Part shown: one piece after another, positions 6,927-9,303 of the stretch
Layout of the letters: every line of letters begins with the position of its first letter
Numbering within the stretch: the stretch's first letter is position 1
From: Betaproteobacteria bacterium
GTDB taxonomy: Bacteria; Pseudomonadota; Gammaproteobacteria; Burkholderiales; Casimicrobiaceae
DNA: 63,122 nt
Reading direction: 5' to 3'
Assembly: GCA_029884335.1 (NCBI GenBank)
Contig: JAOUIA010000016.1
Coordinates: forward strand, 1-63,122
The notes under the pieces: model-generated
What the model saw: only the letters and a program-made list of their open reading frames with translations
Databases searched by the model: none
Told to the model about the DNA's origin: nothing
Made by a program: the position numbers and the translations under genes

Positions 6927-7418
6927 TCAGACCCGCAGTATCCGCTCGCCCCGGCCGATGCCGGATGCGCCCGTGCGCACCGTCTCCAGGATCACGCCCG
7001 GCTCGATGGCGGTGAGGAAGGCGTCGAGCTTGCTGCCGGTGCCGGTCAGCTCGATCGTGTAGCTCTTGTCGGTGACGTCGAGGATGCGGCCGCGGAAGAT
7101 GTCGGCCAGCCGCTTCATCTCGTCGCGGTCCTTGCCCGCGGCGCGCACCTTGACCAGCATCAGCTCGCGCTCGATGTGGTTGCCCTCGGTCAGGTCGACC
7201 ACCTTGACGACGTCGACGAGCTTGTTGAGCTGCTTGGTGATCTGCTCGATCACGTCGTCCGAGCCGGTCGTGACGATCGTCATCCGCGACATCGTGACGT
7301 CCTCGGTGGGCGCCACCGTCAGCGACTCGATGTTGTAGCCGCGCGCCGAGAACAGGCCGGAGATGCGCGAAAGCGCGCCGGCTTCGTTCTCGACCAGGAT
7401 GGACAGGATGTGTCTCAT
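6927..7418 (-). CDS. ilvH: Acetolactate synthase small (regulatory) subunit
   Basis: It is the regulatory partner of IlvB, binding valine and stabilising the large subunit. The 163-residue product has an N-terminal ACT domain ([19 protein letters not shown], with [11 protein letters not shown]) and a C-terminal ACT-like domain ([19 protein letters not shown]). The ATG at 7418 overlaps the stop of a repeat-encoded frame that fills the ilvB-ilvH gap (ATGA). Upstream in-frame codons are repeat sequence and are excluded from the gene. Confidence 0.95.
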
Positions 7419-7428
7419 AGAATGAGTG

Positions 7429-7507
7429 CCCCCACGCTCGCCGCATGCGCGGCTTCGCTGCCCCCCAAGGGGGAGCAATTCGCGCCTTGGGACGGCCCTG
7501 CGGCGCT
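7429..7507 (-). repeat. Coupling-junction repeat, copy 2 (79 bp)
   Basis: This is the first of two 79-bp copies that are base-for-base identical. It runs from CCCCCACGCTCGCC through GCCCCCCAAGGGGGAGC to CGGCCCTGCGGCGCT. The central CCCCC/GGGGG arms form a hairpin. Identity to the next copy indicates very recent duplication or gene conversion. Confidence 0.9.
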
Positions 7508-7515
7508 GACCTGTA

Positions 7516-7594
7516 CCCCCACGCTCGCCGCATGCGCGGCTTCGCTGCCCCCCAAGGGGGAGCAATTCGCGCCTTGGGACGGCCCTGCGGCGCT
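7516..7594 (-). repeat. Coupling-junction repeat, copy 3 (79 bp)
   Basis: Identical to the copy at 7429-7507 and separated from it by eight bases. Its outer end abuts the ilvB stop codon. Confidence 0.9.
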
Positions 7595-9303
7595 CATAGC
7601 TCCTCCGCCAGGATCATCTCCGTCAGCCCCTTCCCGCCGGGCACCATCGGGAACACGTTCTCGGTCTGGTCGGTGATGAAGTCGAGGAACACGAGGCGCT
7701 CCTTCAGCTTGAAGGCCTCCTTCAGCGCGCCCTCGACGTCGCCGGGCTTCTCGATGCGCATGCCGACGTGCCCGTAGGCCTCGGCGAGCTTGACGAAGTC
7801 GGGCAGCGCGTCCATGTACGACTCCGCGTAGCGGTTGCCGTAGAAGAACTCCTGCCACTGGCGCACCATGCCCATGTAGCGGTTGTTCAGGTTCACGACC
7901 TTCACCGGGATGTGGTACTGCTTGCAGGTCGAGAGCTCCTGCAGGCACATCTGGAACGACGCCTCGCCGGTGACGCAGGCGACCGTCGCGTCGGGGTTCG
8001 CGAGCTGCACGCCCATCGCCGCCGGCAGCCCGAAGCCCATCGTGCCCAGCCCCCCCGAGTTGATCCAGCGCCGCGGCTTGTCGAACTTGTAGTACTGCGC
8101 GGCCCACATCTGGTGCTGGCCGACGTCCGAGGTGACGAACGCCTCGCCTTTCGTCTCCGCGTACAGCGCCTCGATGACCGCCTGCGGCTTGATCTTGTCG
8201 CTCGACTTGTCGTACTTCAGGCACTCGCGGCGCTGCCACTCCTTGATCTCGGCCCACCACGCCTTCAGCGCCTGCGCGTCGGGGCGCTGCGGCGACGACT
8301 CGAGGATGCGCAGCATCTCGTCGAGCACGTCGCCGACGTAGCCGACGATCGGCACGTCGACCTTGACGCGCTTGCTGATCGAGGAGGGGTCGATGTCGAC
8401 GTGGACGATCTTGCGGTCGGCGCGGAAGAAGTGCTGCGGGTTGCCGATCACGCGGTCGTCGAAGCGGGCGCCGATGGCGAGCAGCACGTCGCAGCTCTGC
8501 ATCGCCATGTTCGTCTCGTAGGTCCCGTGCATGCCCGGCATGCCGGTGAACTGCGGGTCGGTGGCGGGGAAGCCGCCCAGCCCCATCAGCGTGGTCGTGC
8601 ACGGGAAGCCGAGCAGGCGCACGAGGCGCGTCAGCTGGGCGCTGGCGTTGTTGAGGATCACGCCGCCGCCGGCGTAGACCATCGGGCGCTTCGCCTCCAG
8701 CAGCAACTGCACCGCCTTCTTGATCTGCCCGGCGTGGCCCTTCGTCACCGGGTTGTACGAGCGCATCGCGACCGTCTTGGGGTAGTGGTACTCGGTCTTC
8801 GCCTGCGTGACGTCCTTCGGGATGTCGACCAGCACGGGGCCGGGGCGGCCCGTCGCGGCGAGGTAGAACGCCTTCCTGATCGTGGTGGCGAGGTCCTTCA
8901 CGTCCTTCACCAGGAAGTTGTGCTTGACGCAGGGCCGCGTGATGCCGACGGTGTCGCACTCCTGGAAGGCGTCCTGGCCGATCGCGTGCGTCGGCACCTG
9001 CCCGGTGATGACGACCATCGGGATCGAGTCCATGTACGCGGTCGCGATGCCCGTCACCGCGTTGGTGACGCCGGGCCCCGAGGTGACCAGGCACACGCCG
9101 GTCCTGTGCGAGCTGCGCGAGTAGCCGTCGGCCGCGTGCGCGGCGCCCTGCTCGTGGCGGACGAGGACGTGCTTGACCTTGTCCTGCTTGAACAGCTCGT
9201 CGTAGATGTTGAGGACCGCGCCGCCCGGATAGCCGAAGACGTATTCGACGCCCTCCTCGGCCAGGCACCGGACGACGATTTCGGCACCCGTGATCGTTTC
9301 CAT
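7594..9303 (-). CDS. ilvB: Acetolactate synthase large (catalytic) subunit, biosynthetic
   Basis: This ThDP-dependent enzyme makes acetolactate or acetohydroxybutyrate from pyruvate (and 2-oxobutyrate) for valine, leucine and isoleucine synthesis. The 569-residue product has FGYPGGAVLNIYDEL and the catalytic Glu in VRHEQGAAHAADGYSR near residue 47. An FAD-binding middle domain follows (GARFDDRVIGN), then the ThDP motif beginning VTGEASFQMCLQEL and ending near NLNNRYMGMVRQWQ. The usual GDG is GEA here. The ATG at 9303 is preceded by GAGGGG. A promoter with a roughly 220-base untranslated leader lies upstream. First gene of the ilvB-ilvH-ilvC unit. Confidence 0.96.
   Translation of the reverse strand: METITGAEIVVRCLAEEGVEYVFGYPGGAVLNIYDELFKQDKVKHVLVRHEQGAAHAADGYSRSSHRTGVCLVTSGPGVTNAVTGIATAYMDSIPMVVITGQVPTHAIGQDAFQECDTVGITRPCVKHNFLVKDVKDLATTIRKAFYLAATGRPGPVLVDIPKDVTQAKTEYHYPKTVAMRSYNPVTKGHAGQIKKAVQLLLEAKRPMVYAGGGVILNNASAQLTRLVRLLGFPCTTTLMGLGGFPATDPQFTGMPGMHGTYETNMAMQSCDVLLAIGARFDDRVIGNPQHFFRADRKIVHVDIDPSSISKRVKVDVPIVGYVGDVLDEMLRILESSPQRPDAQALKAWWAEIKEWQRRECLKYDKSSDKIKPQAVIEALYAETKGEAFVTSDVGQHQMWAAQYYKFDKPRRWINSGGLGTMGFGLPAAMGVQLANPDATVACVTGEASFQMCLQELSTCKQYHIPVKVVNLNNRYMGMVRQWQEFFYGNRYAESYMDALPDFVKLAEAYGHVGMRIEKPGDVEGALKEAFKLKERLVFLDFITDQTENVFPMVPGGKGLTEMILAEEL

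Follow-up and report, generated by a model that had tools for sequence, protein, structure and literature searches.

Short interspersed repeats in the draft genome of a Casimicrobiaceae bacterium form open frames that lead from the stop codon of one operon gene to the start codon of the next, and these repeats probably act as translation-coupling cassettes. They came to attention in a window of 63,122 nt (contig C118, JAOUIA010000016.1; the draft genome comprises 3.66 Mb in 120 contigs), where repeats lie at five same-strand gene junctions, among them ilvB-ilvH. There are three related forms, families A, A' and B, each with a mini-frame that we read from the sequence. In A and A' the start of this mini-frame usually overlaps the upstream stop codon, and its stop the downstream start codon, both as RTGA; in B the stop sits one base before the downstream start. 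A ribosome ending the upstream gene could then begin again on the overlapping RTG and read through the repeat, making a probably harmless peptide; at the next start codon it would terminate and initiate once more, now on the downstream gene. In a coupled operon, copies with a broken chain would be lost and copies that keep it would persist. We infer that the repeats are mobile, that ribosomes re-initiate at the overlaps, and that the cost of a broken chain is lost coupling or Rho-dependent polarity. Coupling in Escherichia coli and Haloferax volcanii is described as almost lost at ~20 nt (PMC10666635), so by that account an unbridged insert would uncouple the genes. The feature is real; it is narrower in the repeats that it covers than the original prediction supposed, and well founded in the main family.

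Frame keeping at repeat-bearing junctions

Bridging is mainly a property of one repeat group, the GGGCCG-hairpin families A and A' and, in part, B. The repeat at ilvB-ilvH has 34 matches in its own genome at E 0.001, and the core GGGCCGYCCCAAG has 125 (at most one mismatch), compared with 35 for a reversed control pattern; comparing 40 core groups with the gene calls gave the three related forms. Family A (~80-90 nt) begins with TGAGCGCC, carries a GGGCCGTCCCAA-loop hairpin and ends in GCGTGGGGG, followed by a short spacer to the next start. Family A' (65 nt) ends in GGAGGG and seven further bases, directly before the next start; as a ribosome-binding motif GGAGGG is a good one, and in A' it stands at a normal distance. 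The first TGA of the element is the stop codon of the upstream gene in 14 of the 40 groups. Family B (~82 nt) is oppositely oriented relative to the genes, its gene-sense strand reading GATGAAACGACCCCC...GCCACTGAC, and all 12 copies found directly precede a start codon (11 ATG, one TTG). Seven of these copies have a clear left end; the frame stops one base before the downstream start in six, and in the seventh (L049) its stop is the TGA of ATGA. The predicted fold of one unit per form was unremarkable for A (z -1.3) and A' (z -0.7) and moderate for B (z -2.8), and searches of five sources (the window, L042, L048, L061 and L060) against Rfam at the gathering score returned tRNA only, with no match to the repeats. 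Hairpins with the same loop (GGGCCGCCCCAA) and freely covarying arms were also seen (L031, L034, L035, L037, L058 and L056:8452), lying beside genes and not bridging them; these are possibly terminators or a sister family.

Frame keeping was measured in 995 kb of the own genome, consisting of a discovery sample (704 kb picked around core matches, plus the window) and a validation sample (291 kb of contigs picked independently of the motif), with genes called by a custom hexamer caller. The chain test followed up to three linked frames across a same-strand junction, each starting on or directly after the preceding stop, to a last stop that overlaps, abuts or sits one base before the downstream start; identical junctions with a 1-2 nt deletion at random gap positions served as control. 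Chains were complete in 21 of 28 core-bearing junctions (75%) vs. 7.6% in the frameshifted control (p = 2e-18), the 28 including at least three with the free-arm hairpin core (L037, L056 and L373), all chainless. Junctions with other repeats reached 7/70 (control 1.6%) and repeat-free junctions 11/220 (control 1.7%). These two rates do not differ significantly (Fisher p = 0.15), and the suggestion that repeats of different families share the bridging property did not hold up as a general one. Junctions with a core in B orientation gave 2/9 (control 5.6%), an undercount from mis-set starts, the caller having put the start codon 24 nt too far upstream at most family B copies; family B was therefore re-read by motif. 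In four relatives, with all junctions taken together, chains were found in 7/124 (control 1.8%), 11/120 (1.5%), 1/72 (0.3%) and 0/58 (0.9%).

The repeat-free junctions thus lie slightly above their controls, and some of them are probably small genes missed by the caller. A small gene overlapping both neighbours by 4 nt gives the same phase as a repeat bridge, and such genes probably explain some of the 11 repeat-free chains; that the bridges as a whole are ordinary small genes of this kind is nevertheless very unlikely, as the repeat bridges encode repeat peptides that occur in many copies and are common to unrelated operons.

A second test considered phase alone, in same-strand junctions with gaps of 20-450 nt and RTGA at both ends. 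In the discovery sample 23 of 82 repeat-bearing junctions had RTGA at both ends, with 18 of the 23 in phase (p = 1.3e-5) and 17 open; for repeat-free junctions the figures were 10/160, five in phase and four open. The validation sample gave 7/25 (three in phase, three open) for repeat-bearing and 4/60 (one in phase, one open) for repeat-free junctions. Over both samples RTGA at both ends marks 30/107 repeat-bearing vs. 14/220 repeat-free junctions (p = 4e-7), and the phase differs by family: 15/18 for core-bearing junctions (15/15 open), 6/12 for other repeats and 6/14 where there is no repeat. Bridges in phase are open at lengths up to 442 nt, and those with a core hold no stop in 1021 codons of the bridge frame, compared with 8/991 and 3/1006 in the other two frames. 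A bridging rule for all repeats was rejected, the validation sample having three of seven in phase and the out-of-phase cases being CCCTCACCCC-type, repetitive extragenic palindromic (REP)-type and other repeats.

Could these frames be due to chance, given that stops seldom interrupt GC-rich frames and that RTGA overlaps are frequent? The majority of the bridge frames are indeed open, and RTGA is found at 53/160 starts of repeat-free junctions. For A and A', chance is contradicted by the tenfold gap to the frameshifted control and by the spacer lengths described below, and as a general explanation it is scarcely credible; it stays acceptable for the other repeat families (7/70), including the fifth bridge of the window.

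Several observations weigh against the repeats acting as coupling cassettes. Seven of the 28 core-bearing junctions lack a complete chain, the phase result of the validation sample (3/7) is non-significant on its own, and a repeat-poor relative (G006) accounts for the 11/120 above; repeat-free junctions also exceed their controls, so bridging as such can do without these repeats. Stops are rare in all bridge frames of this GC-rich DNA, which makes openness only weakly selective and phase the better test. On the left side of family B, three of the seven clear copies lie within one base of the upstream stop or overlap it, the other four are 10-86 nt away (one being the second unit of a tandem), and in 5/12 copies the left end could not be resolved. 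Finally, no transposition event was seen, and no mobilising enzyme was found, the search having covered 14 Y1_Tnp loci of the genus.

Spacer lengths and orthologous junctions

An indication of selection on the reading frame comes from the spacer between GCGTGGGGG and the RTGAGC of the next start, which was counted in 22 genomes of the genus, 11 of them with a match. Of 50 matches, 42 have a spacer of 1, 4, 7, 10 or 13 nt (p = 2e-13), and the spacer sequences are diverse. As a control, spacers from GCGTGGGGG to ATGC starts are in phase in 18/40 cases (p = 0.08). Leaving out ten matches that may be tandem-internal, 35/40 spacers are in phase, as are 28/33 distinct spacers. Since 35 of the 50 spacers are either 4 or 7 nt long, there are fewer independent events than counts. 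Steps of three in the A spacers point to selection on the reading frame, and the tandem arrays behave in keeping with the chain: where the unit is 87 or 66 nt (0 mod 3) the frame continues with no stop, where it is 65 nt the frame stops and restarts at ATGA, and in L042 and L048 the internal tandem spacer is 5 nt and the terminal one 4 nt, a one-base difference that keeps the chain. The idea that selection keeps stop and start codons in contact is supported for A and A', by the 21/28 chains and the spacer steps, and for the right end of B (12/12), and is no rule for repeats in general.

Fixed-length insertion at RTGA with duplication of the target would also yield phase, from the length of the element and without any selection on translation. 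The A' spacer fits such a cassette: from GGAGGG to RTGA it is 1 mod 3 in 100/118 rows from 19 genomes and in 74/77 rows of five clear A'-carrying genomes, and it measures 7 nt in 69 of these 77, just as a fixed length would give. The phase of A' may thus be built into the cassette, which is a further point against selection on the frame. Traces of duplication exist as well. CTATGAG stands on both sides of the ilvB-ilvH insert of the window and once in the unfilled junction of L076, a 13-nt direct repeat (CCGTGATGCGAGC) flanks the copy in L033, and 13 nt flank that in L198; target-site duplications of 7-13 nt occur in a few copies and are not general. The variable A spacers speak against a fixed length, however, as do the internal and terminal tandem spacers, which differ exactly as the chain requires, and the different inserts at ilvB-ilvH, which are all in phase. 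We consider fixed-length insertion rather improbable as an account of the whole. A comparison of element length by context in the 118 public records listed was weak, being confounded by two alternative ends.

Comparison with orthologous junctions that lack the repeat had been proposed as a check, and ilvB-ilvH allows it. This junction was readable in 22/30 loci, including 15 from the genus. In eight of these 15, the own among them, 46-242 nt separate the genes, and in all eight a frame runs from the ilvB stop to the ATGA of ilvH (six) or to 3 bases short of its start (two). The inserts are of several kinds: two are family A, that of L078 begins like A and ends like another insert, and the rest differ. 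Of the seven unfilled junctions of the genus, one overlaps by 4 nt (L076), four overlap by 1 nt and two have gaps of 1-2 nt, and the junction of L076 corresponds to the predicted unfilled site GAGCTATGAGACAC. Outside the genus, gaps of 30 and 141 nt (L095 and L091) have no RTGA ends and do not follow the pattern, and five further junctions have gaps of 1-15 nt.

Three other junctions were read in the same way (own locus included), with 17/21 loci readable for trpA-accD, 15/21 for lolB-ispE and 7/17 examined for ccoQ-ccoP. Overlaps of -4 occur in 1/17, 5/15 and 3/7, respectively, counting the own filled locus; the remaining junctions have short or longer gaps, some hiding a gene missed by the caller. 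Six trpA-accD junctions combine RTGA at both ends with a gap of at least 20 nt, and four of these are in phase and open; of the other two, L282 is out of phase and L299 has a frame that begins at the ATG of the element itself, as read by eye. Presence and absence of the repeat differ between species. That insertion targets stop/start overlaps, as originally suggested, agrees with the 1- or 4-nt overlaps of some unfilled orthologues and less well with the short gaps of others; a preference for such overlaps as insertion sites is plausible.

Alternatively, the bridges may serve to keep translation going and so avert Rho-dependent polarity on GC-rich untranslated RNA, and not to hand over ribosomes. 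They do remove untranslated intergenic RNA, and PMC12548453 describes polarity that arises when Rho loads on untranslated RNA. Relief of polarity needs no exact contact of stop and start at the right end, yet most core-bearing junctions have it, which makes this explanation unlikely, though not negligible, next to translational coupling.

The window, other Burkholderiales and protein-internal copies

All five frames of the window translate as earlier described, with the reservations that the contig edge truncates bridge 1 and that bridge 3 arises by read-through of ccoQ. Bridge 1 (2..148, + strand) is open up to the TGA within GTGA at 145-148, the start of an ATP-binding cassette (ABC) ATPase gene; its 3' part consists of family A in that frame, and its left junction lies beyond position 1, the first base of the contig. 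Contigs of the draft genome (G000) break in or beside A/A' arrays at the end of C58 and the starts of C60, C90 and C118; the count of copies may therefore be too low, and bridge 1 lacks its left end. Bridge 2 (7415..7597, - strand) joins ilvB and ilvH, with ATG on the ilvB stop and TGA on the ilvH ATG; it has 61 codons including the stop, its peptide ends in ALIL, and it consists of two family A units, one at 7513..7594 (-) with the GGGCCGTCCCAA-loop hairpin and GGGGG close to the 3' end, and a second at 7426..7507 (-), 87 nt downstream in register with the frame kept. In bridge 3, the C-terminus of ccoQ (30405..30668, - strand) is a family A element (30413..30494, -) in the ccoQ frame that ends with TGA on the ccoP ATG; it extends ccoQ by read-through and has no separate frame. 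Bridge 4 (48773..49126, - strand) has GTG on the xrtH stop and ends with the TGA in GTGA at the next start. It is composite, a CCCTCACCCCCGACCCC-type repeat followed by A'-like stretches, with its end out of the usual A' frame. Bridge 5 (55185..55409, - strand) starts with GTG on the gspE stop and ends with a TAG that shares a base with the gspF GTG (TAGTG); its repeat is CCCGCnTTCGCGGG-type, without the A core. A repeat-rich stretch beside ilvC (5622..5877, no strand given) had been named from the outset as the exception to the rule.

Other repeats are present in the window. GAAAGTCGAGTCTGACCCTACTTTC-type repeats, direct and inverted, lie at 15697-15812, 39229-39306, 49684-49833 and 61325-61689, and a longer near-identical repeat with CCCGCCTTCGCGGGGACGACG at 42819-42993, 52727-52908 and 62534-62612.

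The core of family A was found in at least 118 public stretches, with matches in Burkholderiales and other Betaproteobacteria (Ramlibacter, Variovorax, Acidovorax, Rhodoferax, Casimicrobiaceae and others). The strict coupled pattern with RTGAGC occurs in 4 of 300 genomes of the order, own included (13 rows, nine of them own), and an order-wide spread of this arrangement was rejected on that count; the coupled form looks largely confined to the genus, family A itself being widespread. Among the matches listed, 23 sense element groups lie between same-strand genes, six with RTGA at both ends and five of these in phase and open, and of 24 antisense groups two have RTGA at both ends, one in phase.

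Family A also resides in genes, and there it is read in a single preferred frame. Among the same listed matches, 33 copies overlap a called gene in sense, 32 of them in the GPSQGA frame; the element's own TGA closes one other frame, so that the fair comparison is 32 to 1 between two frames (p = 4e-9). Antisense overlaps (23 among the matches listed) split over two frames, 10 and 13. AAGPSQGA-type peptides derived from family A appear in frame inside conserved proteins of other Burkholderiales. Pfam searches with ten repeat-carrying proteins place the repeat inside the GCV_T domain (L191), the last phosphomannomutase domain (PGM_PMM_IV; L150) and DUF2126 (L120), in a helicase within the UvrD_C region, which is split (L135), at the point where a spermine-synthase match breaks off (L160), and just past the best ATP-grasp stretch of a biotin carboxylase (L214); it lies between domains in glutamate synthase (L154), RecJ (L156), UvrA (L111) and a MacB-like protein (L140).

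It is possible, though we hold it doubtful, that a single repeat lineage of the Betaproteobacteria has turned into a general translation-compatible mobile element with a fixed, benign frame, settling inside proteins as well as between coupled genes, and that the genus form is an operon cassette whose hairpin arm pairs with the RTGA of the site and may thereby select stop/start overlaps. In 9/15 own copies of family A, pairing between the two arms of hairpin 1 extends over the whole left arm (nine positions, including the R of RTGA); among the matches listed from other records this pairing stops after five pairs in 60/62 copies. Full arm-to-target pairing is thus seen in the own genome only, which lowers the odds of this reading.

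Known systems and biological meaning

A counterpart is known in the mycobacterial interspersed repetitive units (MIRUs), whose loci form tandem arrays, as here, and whose insertion site is termed DTGA. Although the original prediction knew of no such system, MIRUs are described in PMC12548453 as apparently mobile elements that insert at start codons and carry an internal frame coupled to the gene with -4 spacing. The likeness lies in short interspersed repeats whose frame ends overlap the stop and start codons of the neighbours, as they do here in 21/28 core-bearing junctions, and by this analogy the bridging principle is already known from MIRUs. Differences are clear as well: mycobacteria belong to another phylum, and the likeness seen is one of architecture; three forms occur here, of which one has GGAGGG 7 nt ahead of the start and another is read from the other strand; and family A is also found in frame inside proteins of other Burkholderiales.

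This last trait recalls the Rickettsia palindromic elements (RPEs), palindromic repeats that are described as in-frame inserts of unrelated genes, where each codes for a conserved peptide (PMC10969869; PMC3733652), much as family A takes one frame in 32/33 overlapping sense genes among the matches listed. RPEs are longer (~150 bp; PMC10969869), and stop/start bridging of operon genes does not feature in the available text of those accounts. REP sequences are likewise hairpin repeats located mostly between genes (PMC3733652), and in both respects they resemble the elements described here. The REP-associated tyrosine transposases (RAYTs) are unsupported as mobilisers, the A core being present at 0/14 Y1_Tnp loci of the genus within ~1.5 kb on each side. 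Ordinary coupling by ATGA or TGATG involves the same type of junction, and some of the unfilled orthologous sites are such overlaps, but the genes considered here are up to 442 nt apart, with a frame made by the repeat spanning the gap. No account of these betaproteobacterial elements was found in the literature searched by DNA letters, peptide and subject, a search whose scope left out most subscription journals; the papers listed for the DNA letters all dealt with unrelated subjects, and the peptide gave none. What is new is a betaproteobacterial counterpart in several forms, together with the same element in one frame inside Burkholderiales proteins, as in RPEs.

These results suggest that operons can absorb inserts of up to ~440 nt with the contact of stop and start codons kept, and that a phylum distant from the mycobacteria has its own counterpart to the strategy of MIRUs. 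The ilvB-ilvH junction, which in 8 of the 15 readable species of the genus is filled by several kinds of insert and always bridged, is a natural experiment in which the strength of selection for coupling is measurable.

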